21,975 nt of DNA, taken from IMG/VR virus record IMGVR_UViG_3300049793_000128, positions 1-21,975 of that record; one strand, given 5' to 3'. The position numbers and the translations under genes were made by a program. Shown here in pieces: positions 11,744 through 21,975 of the stretch. The notes beneath the pieces were generated by a model, which saw only the letters and a list, made by a program, of their open reading frames with translations, was not told the DNA's origin and did not search any database. The stretch's first letter is position 1; every line of letters begins with the position of its first letter. This DNA comes from a virus.

Positions 11744-13807
11744 ATGAAGAACAGTATTTCGGCACCACGTGGTGCCCTGAACGTGCGCGACGTGCGTAGA
11801 ATGATGCTCGACAAACTCGATGGCTCGGGTCTTGACGAGAAAGATGCGAAGGTGCTGAGTCTCGAACCGTTCACCGGCTCAGAGGCGAAGAAGCTTGGTA
11901 ACTTACCTGCCTACTTCGCTGGATTCAGAATCCCGTACTTTGATCTTGAGGGTCGCAGAACGAAGTTCTGGCGATACCGCTATCTCGAATCAACAAAGGT
12001 TGGCTTCGATGCCCTCACAACCAAGAAGCCTTTGCGTTACGCGCAGAGTGGCAAGTCCGTAAACGAAATCTATTTGCCTCCAGTAGCGGGGACCAACTGG
12101 AAGATGATCGCCGCGTCGAGCGATATCCCAGTAGTGATAACCGAAGGCGAACTCAAAGCGGCGTGTGCCACGCGCAACGGCACACCAACTATCGGGCTTG
12201 GCGGCGTGTGGTGTTTTAAAAGCACGAGCGCGAGGTTCCCTTTGCTGCCTCAGTTCAAAGAGTTCGCGTGGAAGGGGCGCACCGTCTACATCTGCTATGA
12301 CTCCGATGCGGTGACAAATCCGCAGGTGATGTCAGCGGAGAACGCCCTCGCGCGCGAGCTAACTATGCTCGGCGCGGAACCGATGATCGTTCGCATCCCA
12401 CAGGGACCGCCGAACGTGAAGATAGGTGTTGACGACTACATAGTTGAAGAGGGGATAAATGCCTTCCGTGAGCTGCTGGATACCGGAACGGAGTGGCGCG
12501 CAGCGAGCGAACTATTCGCCCTGAACGAAGAAGTGGTGTACGTACGCGATCCCGGCGTCATCCTTCGCATGGAGAACCTCCAACATATTAGTCCGCGAGC
12601 CTTCACCGACCACGCATACTCCACGCGTATCTACCACGAGGCGCAGGAGAGCGAGAAGGGAACAAAACTGGTAGAGCGCAACGCAGCCAAAGAATGGCTA
12701 AAGTGGCCGCAACGCGCTGAGGTAGCGAGAGTGACGTACAAGCCGGGAGATGGACGCATAACCCAGAAGAACGAACTAAACGTTTGGCCCGGATGGGGGA
12801 TAGACGCCGAGCCGGGAGACATCGCTCCGTGGCGAGACCTACTGGACTATCTGTTCTTCGGTGACAAGAAGGCGCGCGACTGGTTCGAGCAATGGTGTGC
12901 ATACCCGCTGCAGTATCCAGGAACGAAGATGTATTCGTGCGTACTCATCTGGGGTCTGCGTCACGGTACGGGTAAATCACTGATTGGGTACACGCTCGGT
13001 AAGATATATGGTGCGAACTTCACTGAGATCGGCGACAAGAACCTACACGAGTCGCACAATGAATGGGCTGAGAACAGACAGTTTGTCATGGGCGACGAAA
13101 TAACCGGCGGCGACAAGCGTGGACAGGCCGACCGGATGAAGTCCATCATCACTCAGCAGCTCCTGCGCTTAAACCCGAAGTACGTACCGTCGTATACCGT
13201 GCCGGATTGCATCAACTACTACTTCACCTCCAACCATCCGGACAGCTTCTTTCTGGAGGACGACGACCGACGTAACTTCATCCACGAGGTGAAGGGCCCA
13301 CCACGAGACCGTGAGTTCTACGCTCGCTACGACGCTTGGCTCAACGGCGACGGACCCTCCCACTTGTTCCACCATTTACTGTCGCTGTCGCTCAAGGGCT
13401 TCGAGCCCAAGGCTCCGGCGATGGTGACGGAAGCCAAGCTGGAGATGATAGACAGTGGGCGCTCCGATCTCGGTGGATGGGTCGCTCTATTGCGCGATTC
13501 ACCAGACAGCGTGTTGCGGATGGACAGCATAGCCATTAAGCACGATCTCTGGCGAGCCGAGGACCTCCTCGCCTTGTACGACCCACTACAGACAAAGCGA
13601 GTCACATCCAACGGCATGGCGCGTGAGCTGAAGCGAGCGGGATTCAAACGGCCAGCGGGCACAACGGGCATTCGCACGTCACGCGGTCAGGTGCGTTTGT
13701 GGGCTGTGCGTAACGAAGAGAAGTATATGCGCATGAATGCCGTTGACATTGGCAAGGCGTACGACACCGAACGCGCAGCGAAGACGCCTGCGAAAGCGAA
13801 ATTCTGA
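11744..13807 (+). CDS. Primase-helicase: TOPRIM-like DUF3854-type plus SF3-type ATPase, 687 aa
   Basis: Probably the main replication initiation enzyme. The N-terminal part (about 50-240) has a TOPRIM-like pattern: VVITEGELKAACA with E134/E136 (130-142), and VYICYDSDAVTNPQ with D186/D188 (181-194). This is the arrangement of DUF3854-type toprim domains in phage and plasmid primases. The C-terminal part (about 360-600) is a superfamily 3-like ATPase: Walker A GLRHGTGKS (404-412), Walker B FVMGDEI (447-453), a sensor-like NYYFTSNHPD (491-500), and an arginine pair DDRR (507-510). A zinc-binding primase head is not seen, so primer synthesis itself is not proven. The last about 100 residues look like a winged-helix-type end (TSNGMARELKRAGFKR). 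The ATG has GGGGAT 5 nt upstream. It is the first gene of the plus-strand block. Confidence 0.85.
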   Translation: MKNSISAPRGALNVRDVRRMMLDKLDGSGLDEKDAKVLSLEPFTGSEAKKLGNLPAYFAGFRIPYFDLEGRRTKFWRYRYLESTKVGFDALTTKKPLRYAQSGKSVNEIYLPPVAGTNWKMIAASSDIPVVITEGELKAACATRNGTPTIGLGGVWCFKSTSARFPLLPQFKEFAWKGRTVYICYDSDAVTNPQVMSAENALARELTMLGAEPMIVRIPQGPPNVKIGVDDYIVEEGINAFRELLDTGTEWRAASELFALNEEVVYVRDPGVILRMENLQHISPRAFTDHAYSTRIYHEAQESEKGTKLVERNAAKEWLKWPQRAEVARVTYKPGDGRITQKNELNVWPGWGIDAEPGDIAPWRDLLDYLFFGDKKARDWFEQWCAYPLQYPGTKMYSCVLIWGLRHGTGKSLIGYTLGKIYGANFTEIGDKNLHESHNEWAENRQFVMGDEITGGDKRGQADRMKSIITQQLLRLNPKYVPSYTVPDCINYYFTSNHPDSFFLEDDDRRNFIHEVKGPPRDREFYARYDAWLNGDGPSHLFHHLLSLSLKGFEPKAPAMVTEAKLEMIDSGRSDLGGWVALLRDSPDSVLRMDSIAIKHDLWRAEDLLALYDPLQTKRVTSNGMARELKRAGFKRPAGTTGIRTSRGQVRLWAVRNEEKYMRMNAVDIGKAYDTERAAKTPAKAKF

Positions 13808-14082
13808 TGAACAACCGGGAGAAGAAAGTGGCATACGGCAGAAGCGATACTGACAAGGTATTCCCAATCGAAATACAGCAGTCTGTCGAAGTGCCGGGAG
13901 CACAGTACGACGTGCTGATAAGCATCCACCGGAGCGGGTTCAATAAAGAGCAACTCGCGCTGGGTTGCAGCGGCTTGGTGGACTTTGGGCGCTCGCCCAC
14001 GGAAGAACATGTGTACCTTGAAGGCAACTTCACCATCGAAGAGTTGCTGGCGTTGTATCTGGTAATGCAGGAGGACTGCTGA
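13807..14082 (+). CDS. Hypothetical protein, 91 aa
   Basis: The ATG at 13807 overlaps the primase-helicase stop as TGATG, but it has only a weak ribosome binding site. A GTG at 13828, seven codons in, has GGGAG 6 nt upstream and may be the true start. The protein contains a beta-rich middle (VFPIEIQQSVEVPGAQYDVLISIHRSG split over residues about 18-44) and an acidic helix at the end (TIEELLALYLVMQEDC). The stop overlaps the next gene as TGATG. No family is recognised. Tight coupling suggests a small accessory of the replication module. Confidence 0.65.
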   Translation: MNNREKKVAYGRSDTDKVFPIEIQQSVEVPGAQYDVLISIHRSGFNKEQLALGCSGLVDFGRSPTEEHVYLEGNFTIEELLALYLVMQEDC

Positions 14083-14468
14083 TGGACACCTTGTATGGAG
14101 TGCTGGGAGTGGATAAGTCCGCAGATGAAGAGTCTATCAAGACTGCGTACTACAAGGCAGCGAGCGAACACCATCCGGATCGTGGCGGCAACCACGACAA
14201 GATGACGGACATCACACGCGCTGCTGCAGTGTTGTTGGACCCGGAGAAGCGACGCAAGTACGACAAGGAGTTGGAGATGCTGGGCGAACTGTGTCCGTCG
14301 TGCAAGGGAGCCGGACGCACGTTCAAACAGAAGGGCTTCACCAACAAGATACCAAAGGTGTGCGACATGTGCGGAGGCAACGGCATTCTTCGCTGGAAGA
14401 GCAGGACAAAGAAACTGGCCGAGGCCAGCGTCATCACGATGGGAACAACCAAGAGGAATAAGAAATGA
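14082..14468 (+). CDS. Mini J-domain protein with half DnaJ zinc finger, 128 aa
   Basis: Residues 1-62 are a J-domain: YGVLGVDKSADEESIKTAYY, the HPD triad at 31-33 (EHHPDRGG), and the closing helix (AAVLLDPEKRRKYD). J-domains stimulate the ATPase of Hsp70 (DnaK). Residues 71-78 (CPSCKGAG) and 94-101 (CDMCGGNG) are two CxxCxGxG repeats, half of the four present in DnaJ, enough for one zinc site. The DnaJ substrate-binding beta domains are absent. AGGAGG lies 7 nt before the ATG. It probably recruits host DnaK to a phage complex, for example to remodel replication proteins, as host DnaJ/DnaK do for lambda. That role is inferred; the J and zinc motifs are read directly. Confidence 0.88.
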   Translation: MDTLYGVLGVDKSADEESIKTAYYKAASEHHPDRGGNHDKMTDITRAAAVLLDPEKRRKYDKELEMLGELCPSCKGAGRTFKQKGFTNKIPKVCDMCGGNGILRWKSRTKKLAEASVITMGTTKRNKK

Positions 14469-15034
14469 GTCTTCTCGCATACAGTCAGCTTTGTCAACTC
14501 ATCGCGCGCGGCATCGTTGCCGGTAGCGACATCGAAATGGTGAACACCACCAGCATCGACATTCGCTTGGGCGATGCCATTATGGTGGAGAAGAGTGGTG
14601 AGGGAGGCGGTATCGGCGGTCCTCCATCCATCAGACGCGAAGTGTCGCTGCGCAATCGCGACCATCTGTCGATGGAAAAGATTTACCTGAACTCGGAAGG
14701 GTACGCTATCAGACCGGGTGAGTTCATTCTCGCGCAATCTCTTGAGACCTTTCACCTGCCGAACGACATCTCCGCTGAGTACAAACTCAAGTCGTCCATG
14801 GCGCGGCTCGGGCTGGAGCATCTCAACGCAGGCTGGTGCGACAGCGGCTGGTCGGGCAGTGTGTTGACGCTTGAGTTGAAGAACATGACGCAGTACCACT
14901 CCATTCGCATCCGTCCCGGCGATCGTATCGGCCAGATGGTGTTCTTCGAACACGTACCTGTCCCCGCTGACCGCAGCTATTCCGTGCGCGGGCGCTACAA
15001 CAACGACACTGAGGTGATGGGAGTTAAGGTATGA
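14465..15034 (+). CDS. dcd: dCTP deaminase / dUTPase-family enzyme, 189 aa
   Basis: Trimeric enzymes of this family turn dCTP into dUTP (and in some cases on to dUMP), feeding dTTP synthesis or base replacement. Visible motifs are the early SIDIRLGD (30-37), a strand pair ending IRPGEFILAQSLE (82-94), KSSMARLGL (109-117), AGWCDSGWSGSV (122-133), and the conserved LTLELKN with the likely catalytic E137, then IRPGDRIGQMVFFE (149-162). The length matches bacterial Dcd (about 190). The C-terminal tail (RGRYNNDT) differs from the YxGKYQGQ form of E. coli Dcd. Whether it is monofunctional or deaminase/dUTPase bifunctional cannot be decided by eye. The ATG overlaps the J-protein stop as ATGA. Confidence 0.85.
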   Translation: MSLLAYSQLCQLIARGIVAGSDIEMVNTTSIDIRLGDAIMVEKSGEGGGIGGPPSIRREVSLRNRDHLSMEKIYLNSEGYAIRPGEFILAQSLETFHLPNDISAEYKLKSSMARLGLEHLNAGWCDSGWSGSVLTLELKNMTQYHSIRIRPGDRIGQMVFFEHVPVPADRSYSVRGRYNNDTEVMGVKV

Positions 15035-15783
15035 AACGGGACTACAGCTGGAAGTCAGACTCCCTCGATGCCCGAGACATTCCGTGGGAAACCAATTTGC
15101 GAGCAGCTCAGCTGCCTCGTTCGATCAATCAACTGCATCGACACAACATGCCGCCCTCGTACGACCAAGACTACGGCGGTACATGCACGGCCAACGCGGC
15201 GACCGCGGCCCTCACCTACGAGCAGTTGAAGCTGGGACACAAGCCGTTCGCTTTCAGTCGGCTGTTCGTCTACTACAACGAACGTGTGTTGGAGCATACA
15301 GAGAACAGCGACGCTGGAGCGATGAATCGATCTGCTGTCAAGGTGCTTAACAAGATCGGCGCGTGTTCAGAAATAGCGTGGCCGTACGACCTCACCAAGA
15401 TGCTGCACCGGCCGTATAGCAGTACATACAACGCTGCGTTGCATCACCGTTGCGTTGGGTACAGACGCGTGGCCGTAAACGAACACGCTGTGAAGACAGC
15501 GGTGTTCAGCGACTACCCGGTGATCATCGGACTCAGCATTTATGAATACTTCGAGTCCGACACCGTAGCACGCAGCGGCGTGGTACCAATGCCAAACTTG
15601 CGTGAAGAAAAACTGCTCGGCGGTCATGCGGTGTTGTTGATGGGATACGACGACGACACGCAGCAGTTTCTGGTGCGCAACAGCTGGGGTACCAAATGGG
15701 GAGTGCACGGTTACTTCCATATCCCGTATGACTACGTCTGCAACCCGGAACTCGCAGACGATTTCTGGATTCTGCAGCCGTAA
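15031..15783 (+). CDS. Papain-like (C1A) cysteine peptidase, 250 aa
   Basis: All parts of a papain-type active site are present in order: oxyanion Q46 and nucleophile C52 in YDQDYGGTCTANAATAAL (44-61), H199 in LGGHAVLLMGYDDD (196-209), and N217 in VRNSWGTKWGVHGYF (215-229). The N-terminus (SLDARDIPWE, then LPRSINQLH...MPPSYDQ) matches the short lead of bacterial C1A enzymes with YDQGxxGSCTANA-type centres rather than a long inhibitory propeptide. There is no signal peptide, so it acts in the cytoplasm unless released by lysis. The ATG overlaps the deaminase stop as ATGA. Peptidases of this class are rare among phage replication genes. Targets may be host or phage proteins; nothing in the sequence says which. 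Confidence 0.88.
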   Translation: MKRDYSWKSDSLDARDIPWETNLRAAQLPRSINQLHRHNMPPSYDQDYGGTCTANAATAALTYEQLKLGHKPFAFSRLFVYYNERVLEHTENSDAGAMNRSAVKVLNKIGACSEIAWPYDLTKMLHRPYSSTYNAALHHRCVGYRRVAVNEHAVKTAVFSDYPVIIGLSIYEYFESDTVARSGVVPMPNLREEKLLGGHAVLLMGYDDDTQQFLVRNSWGTKWGVHGYFHIPYDYVCNPELADDFWILQP

Positions 15784-16204: not shown

Positions 16205-16365
16205 TCGGAATGATGTGCTTCATACTCGGTCTGCTCATGTTACTGCCCGGTGTCACGAACGGACCGCCAACTCCACGCACAGGCTTCGGCGTCATCATGG
16301 CTTGCGTCGGTGCTTCGTTGATGGTTCTTAGCGTGGGGATGTTTCTATGGCGCGTCATGCCCTAA
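16192..16365 (+). CDS. Small two-helix membrane protein, 57 aa
   Basis: A second 57-aa two-helix protein. The ATG is preceded by GGAGG with 8 nt spacing. Helix 1 covers residues 1-20 (MLFVIGMMCFILGLLMLLPG), the loop contains NGPPTPRT, and helix 2 covers about 32-53 (FGVIMACVGASLMVLSVGMF). The N-terminus is uncharged apart from the start. It overlaps the genes on both sides (13 nt and 19 nt). It has the size and shape of a small holin or antiholin, but no motif proves this. Confidence 0.65.
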   Translation: MLFVIGMMCFILGLLMLLPGVTNGPPTPRTGFGVIMACVGASLMVLSVGMFLWRVMP

Positions 16366-16808
16366 AAACCAGGACGAAGAGACGTCGGACGAAGTCCGCC
16401 GAAGTAGCGTTCATCCAGCCGAATCTTCGGGGCCGCGCGCGACTCACTCTGGATCGTTACTTCGGCGGCATCGGTGATGCATTCATGGTCGACCAGTTCA
16501 AGGCTACATTGCACAGCGGGTTTCAGTTGGAGTTAACTAAGTTGGACTTCCAACTGATTCCCGCTGCGTTGATACTGGCTTGCTACGGTCGTCATTATGA
16601 AGGTATTGAGTTTGTCGACGACTACGATGATTTGTTGTTGGCACAGCAAGAGGCGTTCACCGAAGGATGTGTGTGCGCACATCCGGATTTGTTCATGGCA
16701 AGCTGCATCGTAATTCTCGCACGACAAGATTTGTTTCCCTGTACTGAAGCTTTTGATGACATCAACATCCCAGAACTGTTCAATCAACTTGTAGTCGTGG
16801 AGGACTAA
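16347..16808 (+). CDS. Hypothetical protein, 153 aa
   Basis: The ATG at 16347 has GGGGA 7 nt upstream and lies inside the end of the membrane-protein gene. The first 20 residues are very basic (MARHALKTRTKRRRTKSAE), which suggests contact with nucleic acid or membrane phosphate. The rest is mildly acidic and helical (LDFQLIPAALILACYG), with scattered cysteines. The stop overlaps the next start as TAATG. No family is recognised. Confidence 0.6.
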   Translation: MARHALKTRTKRRRTKSAEVAFIQPNLRGRARLTLDRYFGGIGDAFMVDQFKATLHSGFQLELTKLDFQLIPAALILACYGRHYEGIEFVDDYDDLLLAQQEAFTEGCVCAHPDLFMASCIVILARQDLFPCTEAFDDINIPELFNQLVVVED

Positions 16809-17212
16809 TGGATAACCAAACTGTAATACCGAACCTGTTCGAAGTCATCGATCGCCTTCTTACAGGCAAGTGCACCAATCAACAGGCCCGCCACTGGGCG
16901 AAAGAGCATCTCGAGCGAGCGCACCAGCAGATAGAAGCCGAGCAAGACCCAGAGTACCTGCTGAGCGCTAAGGTCAGCGAAGACATCTGGGACCAACTAG
17001 GTAAGATCGGTGGACCGGGATACCCAACACCCGATGGACAGACCGACGCAGCACGCACTATTATAGCGAACGCCGAGCTTGTCGAGCGATACGATAGCGT
17101 CAACGCTCGTTCTCCCTTGGTGTACATCGCCGCGCTCGCCATCCACTCTCTCCGCCACATCGATCGGCTGGCTGCGCAAATGGCGATCAATGAAGCGGGA
17201 GGCTTGAACTAA
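16808..17212 (+). CDS. Hypothetical protein, 134 aa
   Basis: Translation starts at a TAATG overlap with GGAGG just upstream. The protein is mostly helical: NLFEVIDRLLTGKCTNQQAR, then AKEHLERAHQQIEAEQ, and a C-terminal helix (VYIAALAIHSLRHIDRLAAQ). A central loop contains PGYPTPDGQ. The helical layout with a hydrophobic last helix resembles many small phage proteins of unknown role. The stop overlaps the ligase start as TAATG, which suggests it is translated with the ligase. Confidence 0.6.
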   Translation: MDNQTVIPNLFEVIDRLLTGKCTNQQARHWAKEHLERAHQQIEAEQDPEYLLSAKVSEDIWDQLGKIGGPGYPTPDGQTDAARTIIANAELVERYDSVNARSPLVYIAALAIHSLRHIDRLAAQMAINEAGGLN

Positions 17213-18090
17213 TGAAACCGATGCTCGCTGCCAAGTGCACAGATATCCGCAAACTGCGGTATCCTCTATACGCGAGTCCAAAGTTGGATGGCGTTCGCGC
17301 TGTTATCAATCGCGAATGCGTGCTTAGTCGCAAGCTACTGTCCATCCCGAATAAATATGTGCAGAGTTTGTTCGGACGCAGCATACTGGACGGGCTTGAC
17401 GGCGAGCTGATAGTTGGCGAGGCGTACGCGTCCACTGTGTACCGAGATACAACCAGCGGCGTGATGAGCGTCGCTGGGGAACCTGCTGTACGGCTGTACG
17501 TGTTCGACGTACATACCATGTGGGATAAACCGTATCCAGCGCGACTAGCGCACCTGCAAGCGCGAGCGCGTAACTGGCCGAAGAACGTGGTGCTGCTGCC
17601 ACAGACCGAGATCAAAACGCCAGACCAGTTGACGGCCTACGAGATGGAGCAGCTCTCGCTCGGTTACGAAGGCGTAATGCTCCGCAGCTTTGACAGCTCA
17701 TACAAATTTGGACGCAGCACCGAGCGCGAGCAATGGCTGCTCAAGCTCAAGCGATTCGAGGACGCCGAGGCGACCATCATCGGCTTCGAAGAGTTGCAAC
17801 ACAATGAGAACGAGGCGACCAAGGACAACCTCGGTCGCATGAAGCGCTCCAGTCATAAGGAGAATCGCGTGGGTGGTGGTGTGCTCGGCTCGTTCATTGT
17901 ACAGGGTTATGGCAGTAAGTTCTCGTTCGGCATCGGCAGCGGATTCACGGCGGATGAGCGCGTCAAGTTCTGGGAAGCGCGTAAGCATCTGCTCGGTAAG
18001 ATCGTGAAGTATCAGTACTTCCCAGGTGGTGGTAAGGAACGCCCGAGGTTTCCAACCTTCCTGGGATTCAGGTCGAAGATCGACCTTTAG
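17212..18090 (+). CDS. ATP-dependent DNA ligase, 292 aa
   Basis: Seals nicks by forming a ligase-AMP intermediate. The adenylation lysine is K24 in ASPKLDGVRA (motif I). Other nucleotidyltransferase motifs follow: GLDGELIVG (motif III, E65), GYEGVMLRS (motif IV, E153), and WLLKLKRF (motif V, K178/K180). Residues about 185-292 form the OB-fold domain (AEATIIGFEELQ, then GVLGSFIVQGYG, SFGIGSGFT). It is a compact ligase without extra DNA-binding domains, as in other phages. The ATG overlaps the preceding stop as TAATG. It would act with the DNA polymerase and primase-helicase on the lagging strand and in repair. Confidence 0.9.
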   Translation: MKPMLAAKCTDIRKLRYPLYASPKLDGVRAVINRECVLSRKLLSIPNKYVQSLFGRSILDGLDGELIVGEAYASTVYRDTTSGVMSVAGEPAVRLYVFDVHTMWDKPYPARLAHLQARARNWPKNVVLLPQTEIKTPDQLTAYEMEQLSLGYEGVMLRSFDSSYKFGRSTEREQWLLKLKRFEDAEATIIGFEELQHNENEATKDNLGRMKRSSHKENRVGGGVLGSFIVQGYGSKFSFGIGSGFTADERVKFWEARKHLLGKIVKYQYFPGGGKERPRFPTFLGFRSKIDL

Positions 18091-18166: not shown

Positions 18167-18718
18167 ATGGCTACCAAGAAGAAGGTTTCTGTTGTTCGCA
18201 AAGTAGTCCGTGATTCGAAGACGGGCCGCATTGTGGACAAATCCGAAGCGAAGAAACGACCGGCTACCACACAGACGGAAACCGTAGGCACTCGCGCGAG
18301 AGTGAGCGCGCGCGAACTGTTTACTCTGCCGCGCACACCCAAGGTGCCCAAGACACTGGCTGAAGCAGCCGACATGTATAGTCGCGTTCGTGAAGCGCGG
18401 CTGGCGTTGCAGAAAGCGTCCGAGCCTTACCAGCAGTTCGAGTTGGAGCTGCGCGAGCACATCATCGACAACCTACCCAAGTCTAAGGCAGGCGGCATCG
18501 CGGGTAAGTTGGTGCGCGTCGAGATCGTCAAGAAGGAAGTTCCGCAGGTGAAGGACGAGAAGAAGTTCGAAGCCTACGCTCGCAAGAAAGGCAACGAGGA
18601 CCTGATGGTCACGCGACCGAACACCAAGGCAATCGGTGAGCGCTGGGATGCTGGGAAGAAGATTCCTGGCGTTGAGCCGTTCGTCGTTGTTTCTCTTTCC
18701 ATGCACAAACTGAAGTAG
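18167..18718 (+). CDS. Conserved phage protein of unknown function, 183 aa
   Basis: The ATG has GAGGAG about 6 nt upstream. The first 50 residues are basic and polar (MATKKKVSVV start). Residues about 62-98 form a helix rich in charged residues, probably a coiled coil (DMYSRVREARLALQKASEPY). The C-terminal half carries a pattern that recurs in phage replication modules: LPKSKAGGIAGKLVRVEIVK (104-123), VPQVKDEKKFEAYA, then DLMVTRPNTKAIGERWDAGK and PGVEPFVVVSLSM. The coiled-coil plus beta layout recalls small host-nuclease-inhibitor or DNA-binding proteins, but no named family can be assigned. It stands between the ligase and the putative DNA-binding protein. Confidence 0.7.
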   Translation: MATKKKVSVVRKVVRDSKTGRIVDKSEAKKRPATTQTETVGTRARVSARELFTLPRTPKVPKTLAEAADMYSRVREARLALQKASEPYQQFELELREHIIDNLPKSKAGGIAGKLVRVEIVKKEVPQVKDEKKFEAYARKKGNEDLMVTRPNTKAIGERWDAGKKIPGVEPFVVVSLSMHKLK

Positions 18719-19254: not shown

Positions 19255-20202
19255 ATGGCAACCAAGAAGCAAGCAGCACCCGCCAAGAAGGCGACGAAGA
19301 AAACCAGCGGTAAGAGCATGACCGTCTTCGAAGAGAGGATGAAGCAACTGGCGGCAGCGGCAGTCGGCGTGGAAGCGCGCGTCGGCGGTGGTGGAACCTT
19401 CATCAGTACGAAAGGCGGCGCTCTGTCGTACAACGGTGCAGAGATGCCAGACAACGAGATGGACGTGGTTGTCCTCGATCACATCATCGAGTACGTCTAC
19501 TACGGCGACCGCTACGATCCGGACAACCCGCAATCGCCGATTGCATTCGCCTTCGGTCGCGACGAAGACGAGATGACGTGGCATCCGAACTCCATACCGG
19601 AATACGCCGGCGAACTTTGCAAAGACTCCGACATCAACCAATGGGGATCTGCCGAGACCGGTAAGGGCAAGGCAGCGAAGAACATTCGCCGCCTCGCCGT
19701 CATCCCAGCCGACCAGATCGACGACATCGAGAATGCCGAGATCGCCTACATCAAGGTTCCGGTTACCAGCGTCAAGGGCTGGGCGGGTTACGTGCGTTCG
19801 CTGGCGAACAACCTCAATCGTCCGCCGCTCGGCGTCGTTACGCGCATCAGCCTTGTCCGCGATGACAAGACGCAGTTCAAGATGAAGTTCGAACTCGTCG
19901 ATCAGATCGAAGACGCGGAAACGTTCGAAAGGTTGTGCGAGCTTTCCGAGAAGGCTGCAGCCGAGATCGAGTTCCCGTATGCGCCGTACGAAGAACCCGA
20001 GGCCAAGCCTGCTCGCGGTGCCAAAAAGGCAGGTCGGCAGGTGCCTGTGCAGCGGGCGCAGCAACGCCAGCCAACGGCAAAGCAAGCGCCAGCGGCCCGT
20101 GGCCGCAGCGCTCCGCCTGCTGCGCCTGCTAAAGCCCCGGCAAAGACCAGCAAAGCTCCGGCAAAGGCGGCTCCAGCGGCTGCGAAGAAGAGGAAGTTCT
20201 GA
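19255..20202 (+). CDS. Putative DNA-binding (ssDNA-binding-like) phage protein with histone H1-like tail, 315 aa
   Basis: The ATG has AAGGAA upstream. Residues 1-21 are rich in K and A. Residues about 40-240 form the conserved part: GGGGTFISTKGGALSYNG (44-61), a VVVLDHIIEYVYYGDRYD strand/helix (71-88), MTWHPNS, then INQWGSAETGKGKAAKNIRR (127-146), RLAVIPADQID, and KVPVTSVKGWAGYVRSLA (167-184). This pattern recurs in replication regions of many phages, often beside a family A polymerase, where a single-stranded DNA-binding role is usually suspected. Residues about 250-315 are a low-complexity A/K/P tail (PAKAPAKTSKAPAKAA, ending KKRKF) like histone H1 or bacterial H1-like proteins, well suited to binding DNA non-specifically. 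The acidic C-terminal tip seen in T7 gp2.5-type SSBs is missing, so the comparison is loose. Confidence 0.65.
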   Translation: MATKKQAAPAKKATKKTSGKSMTVFEERMKQLAAAAVGVEARVGGGGTFISTKGGALSYNGAEMPDNEMDVVVLDHIIEYVYYGDRYDPDNPQSPIAFAFGRDEDEMTWHPNSIPEYAGELCKDSDINQWGSAETGKGKAAKNIRRLAVIPADQIDDIENAEIAYIKVPVTSVKGWAGYVRSLANNLNRPPLGVVTRISLVRDDKTQFKMKFELVDQIEDAETFERLCELSEKAAAEIEFPYAPYEEPEAKPARGAKKAGRQVPVQRAQQRQPTAKQAPAARGRSAPPAAPAKAPAKTSKAPAKAAPAAAKKRKF

Positions 20203-21074: not shown

Positions 21075-21975
21075 GTGGCAAAGATACCGGACGTCATCGT
21101 CGTCGATGCAGAGACACACGGCTTTGAGAGCCGACCCAAGTACCCTCCGGTGCCGGTCGGCTTTTCCATTAAGTGGCCTCAAGACAAACGCTCCACCTAT
21201 CATGGTTGGGGACACCCAACCAAGAACAACACAACGAAGAGTGCAGCGCAGAAAGAACTGACCCGCGCATACAAGTCCGGCATTCCGTTGCTGTATCACA
21301 ACAGTGCGTTTGACGTTGATGTGTTTGAAGAGCACATGCAGCAGAAGCGTCTTGATTGGAGTATGTACCACGACACATTGTTCCTTCTGTTCCTCCACGA
21401 TCCACATGCTCGCTCCATTAGCTTGAAGCCAGCGGCAGAACTTATTCTTGGGATGGCTCCAGACGAACGCGATGCAGTGCGTGACTGGTTGGAAGACCAC
21501 GGCATCTGCCGCAAGAAGCAGAAGGACTGGGGTGCTCACATCTGGCAAGCTCCCGGTGATCTAGTAGGTACGTACGCCGACGGCGACGTGATGCGCACCT
21601 ATAAGCTGTTCGTCAAGGTGTATCCGGAAATCGTGAAGCGAGGTATGCTCGAAGCCTACAATCGTGAACGTCAACTGATGCCTATACTGCTGGACAACGA
21701 ACGCCAAGGTCTACGCGTTGATCAGAAGCTGCTTAACTCTGACATCATCATCTACGAGCGCGCAGTCATCACGGCGGACAACTGGCTACGTAAGCGGCTG
21801 AAGGCCAAGGACCTCAACATCGACAGCGACAACGATCTTGCTGATGCGTTGGACAGAGCAGGCATCGTCACGGAGTGGGTGTACACAGAACCAACGAAGA
21901 ACCATCCGGAGGGACAGCGCAGCGTCGCCAAGAAGAACATGACAGTGGATATGTTCCGCGACAAGAAGGTAGCCG
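21075..21975 (+). CDS. Family A DNA polymerase with 3'-5' exonuclease domain (partial, N-terminal 300 aa)
   Basis: The frame starts at GTG 21075 (GGAG 6 nt upstream) and is open to the right edge. The visible part is a DEDDy exonuclease: Exo I VVDAETHG with D11 and E13, Exo II HNSAFD with N76 and D80, and Exo III YADGD with Y167 and D171. After it, the segment MPILLDNERQGLRVD (202-216) is the usual link from exonuclease to polymerase domain in T7-like and other phage family A enzymes. The polymerase motifs A, B and C lie outside the window. It would be the replicative polymerase together with the primase-helicase and ligase of this block. Confidence 0.88.
   Translation, partial: MAKIPDVIVVDAETHGFESRPKYPPVPVGFSIKWPQDKRSTYHGWGHPTKNNTTKSAAQKELTRAYKSGIPLLYHNSAFDVDVFEEHMQQKRLDWSMYHDTLFLLFLHDPHARSISLKPAAELILGMAPDERDAVRDWLEDHGICRKKQKDWGAHIWQAPGDLVGTYADGDVMRTYKLFVKVYPEIVKRGMLEAYNRERQLMPILLDNERQGLRVDQKLLNSDIIIYERAVITADNWLRKRLKAKDLNIDSDNDLADALDRAGIVTEWVYTEPTKNHPEGQRSVAKKNMTVDMFRDKKVA

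Follow-up and report, generated by a model that had tools for sequence, protein, structure and literature searches.

A mini J-domain protein as a near-core gene of a phage replication module, beside an optional dCTP deaminase and an unpartnered C1A peptidase

The window analyzed here spans the whole of one IMG/VR virus record, IMGVR_UViG_3300049793_000128, and is 21,975 bases long. In its plus-strand early operon four overlapping genes follow a primase-helicase, and these encode a small protein (u91), a mini J-domain protein (J), a dCTP deaminase (Dcd) and a C1A cysteine peptidase (C1). Comparison of sequences and gene orders indicates that J is a near-core gene of the replication module of this lineage, that Dcd recurs as an optional nucleotide-pool gene in the interval between J and the DNA ligase, and that C1 is independently acquired cargo, a one-off insertion without a conserved partner that appears to be co-translated by chance. 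The four overlapping genes are real, yet they are not a conserved cassette. The replication module belongs to a siphovirus-like phage lineage, and the isolated kin of this lineage infect Xanthomonadaceae.

Results

The J protein has one zinc center and no general substrate domains

The J protein matches PF00226 (DnaJ) at 3.1e-17, with 62.9 bits against a cut-off of 27.8. Its HPD motif (residues 31-33) is found between helices 16-30 and 38-52 of an AlphaFold2 (AF2) model, that is, between helices II and III as in J-domain proteins (Hsp40/JDP). The model was built with 19 family members and has a predicted local distance difference test score (pLDDT) of 87. Among its PDB matches are J domains, one of them the DnaK-bound E. 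coli J domain (5nro). The second half of the protein carries a zinc-binding pair, C71xxC74...C94xxC97, which makes a single zinc center. Since only one of the two zinc centers of DnaJ is present, the DnaJ zinc domain PF00684 reaches 20.1 bits, under its cut-off of 32.7. Cellular type I DnaJ likewise combines an HPD-bearing J domain with CxxCxGxG zinc motifs behind it. However, the window protein has one zinc center, not two, and neither the G/F-rich region nor the C-terminal substrate domains of type I DnaJ were found in it, nor were four CxxCxGxG motifs.

The J proteins of the family are only ~21-50% identical to each other. In the family alignment, the four cysteines are invariant and HPD is present in 19 of 21 proteins; in a larger set, 58 of 60 proteins retain HPD and 59 of 60 retain the CxxC pair. 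That both motifs are kept despite such low identity argues that they are under selection.

J recurs between the primase and the ligase

A first scan seeded with the primase gave 32 relatives, and these were searched whole together with two phage records (34 in all). J was found in 23 of them, Dcd in none and C1 in one, where it is far away. Scanning IMG/VR with the single sequences of C1, J and u91 produced no usable loci, and alignments or the primase were required. A wider scan, combined with Dcd-seeded loci, yielded 104 loci and 89 distinct primases, of which 63 (the window included) are non-redundant with at least 5 kb downstream.

J is present in 53 of these 63 primase-bearing relatives, which span 39-70% primase identity, and it is upstream of the ligase in all 29 genomes that have both. 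In many relatives it abuts one of the two landmarks, overlapping the primase stop in L009 and the ligase start in L016 and L020. Such a recurrent position, downstream of the primase and ahead of the ligase on one strand, is what is expected of a replication-module protein. Two cultured phages, Stenotrophomonas phage AXL3 and Pseudoxanthomonas phage PW916, also have their primase, DnaJ and ligase genes together in a single module (PMC7504290, PMC9414467). They share the primase family with the window (44-45% identity), their DnaJ-domain protein (gp60 in AXL3) is likewise small (111 residues), and their order of primase, J, nucleotide gene (ThyX) and ligase is that of the window. Unlike the window, AXL3 has no detected Dcd or C1; the function of its J is likewise read from sequence.

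The dCTP deaminase is recurrent but optional

Dcd matches PF22769 (1.2e-30, 107 bits against a cut-off of 27), phrog_1663 (3e-46) and Dcd structures in the PDB, those of the E. coli type and of the bifunctional type about equally. It has the family domain and the catalytic residues of bacterial and phage dCTP deaminases (S110, R114 and E137, invariant in nine relatives), and it is 44-61% identical to other phage Dcds. Dcd was found in 10 of the 63 primase relatives, a fraction biased upward because the set was seeded partly by Dcd-bearing members. J is upstream in all ten, and Dcd comes before the ligase in the six genomes where a ligase is seen. It is the gene next to J in four of the ten, namely the window, L237 (a gap of 0 nt), L157 (an overlap) and L283, for which P = 0.06 against random order in the interval, a borderline value. 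At 81 phage Dcd loci, J was found within the fetched flanks of eight.

The same interval in kin phages holds ThyX (AXL3), NUDIX and cytidylyltransferase/nucleotidyltransferase genes. Thus, it looks like a slot for nucleotide-pool genes and not the site of a J-specific pair. In AXL3, ThyX (L006:7031-7879) lies between J and ligase, as it does in PW916, at the place where the window has Dcd. In a Dcd tree with weak support and long branches, the Dcds of the lineage do not fall into one clade.

The C1A peptidase is intact and lacks a recurring neighbor

C1 matches PF00112 (Peptidase_C1) at 3e-17, and its best PDB match by phmmer is xylellain (3ois, E 3e-46). Its AF2 model (pLDDT 92.6, predicted template-modeling score 0.91) superposes on 3ois in Foldseek with a template-modeling score of 0.91 (E 1.4e-28), with 36% identity over the model. 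The catalytic residues Q46, C52, H199 and N217 are present in 120-121 of 121 relatives. With this full Gln-Cys-His-Asn set and a papain fold nearest to that of xylellain, C1 belongs to the xylellain type of C1A peptidases, and it is not the inactive enzyme for which the original prediction, made from the letters of the window, had allowed. In xylellain, an N-terminal segment blocks the active site. In C1, the aligned part begins with residue 31 of 3ois, so that the extreme N-terminal segment appears to be missing, and the first 10 residues of C1 are modeled at a pLDDT of 65. C1 also differs from xylellain in its gene context, which is a replication operon. No signal peptide was seen in C1.

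Xylellain-type peptidases are widespread in phages and bacteria, and their acquisition by Siphoviridae and Myoviridae has been recorded before (PMC10380794). Among the 63 primase relatives, C1 is found in three: the window, L241, where it has an endolysin/spanin neighborhood, and L269, where it is a distant relative on the minus strand. The C1 proteins of kin phages do not group together on a tree. C1 was near Dcd at none of the 81 phage Dcd loci, within the flanks fetched. At 71 non-redundant phage C1 loci, a single J gene was found at a distance of up to 8 kb, encoded on the other strand, and Dcd is several kb off at three related loci, each time on the other strand. In tallies of the nearest neighbors of these 71 loci, the commonest family accounts for at most 3 of 118 proteins (Pfam) or 4 of 132 (PHROG). 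Since lysis genes are not enriched among the neighbors, a role of phage C1 in lysis generally was rejected.

Peptidases of this kind were also seen in other settings. In two phages with the same primase (L241:8102-8920 and L039:8256-9074, the latter being the record of L036), C1A lies beside endolysin genes (phrog_465, phrog_15351), unlike in the window; in L241 an Rz-like spanin is also close by. Two jumbo phages, an uncultured one of 595 kb (L002:5965-6750) and Burkholderia phage FLC9 (L003:5986-6777), have xylellain-type peptidases that are 43% identical to the window C1. The FLC9 peptidase is a lone gene on the strand opposite to its neighbors.

The overlapping junctions are routine in this operon

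The original prediction had read the genes behind the primase-helicase as a co-translated cassette joined by TGATG, TGATG, ATGA and ATGA. Each junction was verified. The primase stop (TGA, 13805-13807) overlaps the ATG of u91 at 13807 and the u91 stop (TGA, 14080-14082) overlaps the ATG of J at 14082, both as TGATG; the ATG of dcd at 14465 is within the end of the J gene and that of C1 at 15031 is within the end of dcd, both as ATGA (4 nt). It had also called the genes motif-complete where a family is recognized, which is confirmed for J, Dcd and C1, whose Pfam matches exceed the curated cut-offs. However, overlaps are found at 8 of the 14 junctions of the plus-strand operon, among them the two in front of the ligase (g153|g134, 16808; g134|ligase, 17212). 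Since overlaps are routine in this operon, an overlap by itself is no mark of a cassette. J, dcd and C1 use codons like the rest of the genome, and by codon use and GC content neither dcd nor C1 stands out as recent foreign DNA.

The triple of J, Dcd and C1A, whose recurrence in diverged phages would have supported a unit, occurs in the window alone among the 63 primase relatives, 81 Dcd loci and 71 C1 loci. Most relatives thus do not have these genes as a set, which is the outcome that the original prediction had named as refuting it.

Other features of the window

A minus-strand block of packaging and structural genes (terminase, portal, Mu-F-like protein and prohead protease) faces the plus-strand early operon, whose first gene encodes the 687-residue primase-helicase (DUF3854 1.8e-22, DUF5906 7e-18; phrog_1156, DNA primase, 4e-37). 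No Pfam or PHROG family match was found for u91. A positional homologue directly after the primase occurs only in the nearest relative, L235 (listed as L235/L176), with a VYLEGNF motif in common and a phmmer E of 0.045. u91 is a real gene and, L235/L176 apart, a lineage-specific one. In L235 the u91 homologue is followed by a phrog_5845 protein (L235:12140-12760) with a C...H...D pattern (GDCHRTALACLL ... NHTVVCYGG). It has no Pfam match and looks like a cysteine peptidase of the C39/papain clan.

The ligase is supported by PF01068 (1e-12), PF14743 (5e-11) and phrog_114 (2e-56), and g183 is conserved downstream of it in relatives. An open reading frame at 21075-21975 runs off the contig end and has weak matches (E ~0.03) to 3'-5' exonuclease and RNase H-like families. 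The operon may therefore go on with replication genes, for example a polymerase. The features are listed in Table 1.

Table 1. Coordinates of the plus-strand genes considered in this study
Feature	Position	Strand	Length (residues)	Basis or remark
Primase-helicase (DUF3854 toprim-like + DUF5906 D5/SF3-like NTPase)	11744..13807	+	687	Pfam, PHROG
u91, small unknown protein	13807..14082	+	91	Between primase-helicase and J
Mini J-domain protein (J)	14082..14468	+	128	PF00226, family alignment, AF2 model
dCTP deaminase (Dcd)	14465..15034	+	189	PF22769, phrog_1663
Xylellain-type C1A cysteine peptidase (C1)	15031..15783	+	250	PF00112, PDB 3ois match, AF2 model
g153, conserved unknown of the module	16347..16808	+	153	Homologues in the J-to-ligase interval of L008, L009, L010, L235
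ATP-dependent DNA ligase (adenylation + OB domains)	17212..18090	+		Right-hand landmark of the J/Dcd interval
g183, module landmark, weak Mu Gam-like match	18167..18718	+		phrog_13900 1.4e-8, phrog_253 0.002
g315, module landmark, function unknown	19255..20202	+		phrog_27714 3.7e-23; conserved in relatives

Discussion

J domains with an HPD motif make Hsp70 hydrolyze ATP and clamp its client, and type III J proteins determine to which particular clients Hsp70 is steered. Viral replication complexes are among the substrates that Hsp70 machines remodel, as for the SV40 T antigen and, with host DnaJ/DnaK, in phage lambda. From the gene identities, motifs, synteny and the absence of a C1 association observed here, we infer how the proteins would act in vivo, with a probability of roughly 0.55 for the reading as a whole. 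We suggest that J is a co-chaperone of the replication module that brings host DnaK to the primase-helicase or its partners, as the established behavior of J and Hsp70 together with the fixed position of J would lead one to expect. Through its J domain, the protein would bind host DnaK and set off the hydrolysis of ATP. The single zinc center, in place of the general substrate domains of DnaJ, is likely the targeting part, and the likeliest client is the phage replication complex, the primase-helicase with its partners, whose assembly or turnover would require Hsp70 remodeling. Dcd would convert dCTP to dUTP for dTTP supply, and C1, an independent cargo gene, is predicted to be an active peptidase that is translated along with its neighbors by chance.

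Several observations weigh against this reading. J is undetected in ~16% of the relatives with enough downstream sequence, and thus it is not strictly essential to the primase. Many records of the relatives are fragments. One sub-group (L026-L034) has the same primase, no detected J and a different gene order. In three of its members, g183/g315 lie upstream of the primase, so that the module is reorganized. HPD is lost in two J proteins, L018:12276-12686 (HTD) and L036:12294-12632 (H-N), while the zinc cysteines are kept, which suggests that the zinc half may act independently of DnaK. A position in the replication module is in itself no proof of a replication client, and Rki, the characterized J protein of coliphage RB43, has DnaK and sigma-32 for targets instead (PMC3486835).

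The main rival is that J is a factor for host takeover or counter-defense. It would divert DnaK as Rki does, for example by stabilizing a heat-shock sigma factor, or compete with host DnaJ in phage sensing by bNACHT25. Rki is toxic via DnaK, bNACHT25 requires host DnaJ for phage sensing (PMC12169576), and the type III-like architecture of J, free of generic substrate domains, would suit a specific interferer. Rki is also similar to the window J in being a phage-encoded J protein without the full DnaJ substrate domains. However, Rki is of type III, comes from a T4-like phage, and has been shown to bind DnaK and to stabilize sigma-32, whereas the window J has a zinc center and a place in a replication module. 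The constant placement of J between primase and ligase across such diverged primases suits a replication partner better, since arms-race genes are usually patchier, and the zinc center is nearly as constant as HPD. We consider the takeover role clearly less likely than the replication role. The original prediction spoke of a unit for host takeover or replication remodeling. The replication part stands for J alone, and the unit as a whole falls away. In particular, co-selection of J, Dcd and C1, with J and host Hsp70 unfolding a host replication or defense protein that C1 then cuts, is very improbable, though the overlapping junctions, the intact catalytic residues and the genome-like codon use would all agree with it. 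Against it, the triple is confined to the window, Dcd and C1 are missing or nearly so from the first primase set, C1 is absent from the fetched flanks of all 81 phage Dcd loci, J is within 8 kb at one of the 71 phage C1 loci and there on the other strand, and overlaps are ordinary here. With C1 also lacking a recurring neighbor, the proposed joint action of chaperone and protease on one target has no comparative support.

Pairing J with Dcd, with Dcd or the primase as client and C1 as sole passenger, would account for the direct succession of the two genes in four genomes and for the presence of J upstream of every Dcd in the kin. We find it quite unlikely, as direct adjacency is borderline, J is far commoner than Dcd, and J is near few phage Dcds, in the flanks fetched. 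For C1, a late or lysis role with relocation into the early operon would fit the endolysin neighbors in L241 and L039 and the Alicyclobacillus phage MMB025, in which a C1 domain is within an annotated endolysin. This too is unlikely, given the missing signal peptide, neighbors that are not lysis-enriched across phages, and the location of the window C1 in an early-type operon among replication genes. We thus favor a co-chaperone of the replication module, with Dcd as an optional supplier of nucleotides and C1 as cargo.

Tentatively, this can be taken further. J may be a lineage-wide minimal zinc-J co-chaperone dedicated to the D5/SF3-type primase-helicase, so that host DnaK would be a routine part of the phage replisome. 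In a bacterial virus and with separate genes, this would parallel what the J domain does in SV40 large T antigen. If so, both systems would pair J function with a D5/SF3-type replicative helicase. They differ in that J is fused to the SF3 helicase in SV40 and the window genes are separate, and the J domain is the only part for which homology was detected.

None of the three kinds of protein is new to phages, from which J proteins, Dcds and xylellain-type peptidases were all known previously. To our knowledge, phage J-domain proteins are often annotated and Rki is the sole characterized one. Their general role has been described as poorly understood (PMC12619734). What is new here is the census that places a single-zinc mini-DnaJ as near-core in the replication module of this lineage. 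The negative result for the cassette also matters, because it shows that genes of a compact phage operon do not form a functional cassette just because their starts and stops overlap. With J at a fixed place in the replication module across a diverse lineage that has two cultured members, the role of a phage co-chaperone becomes directly testable.

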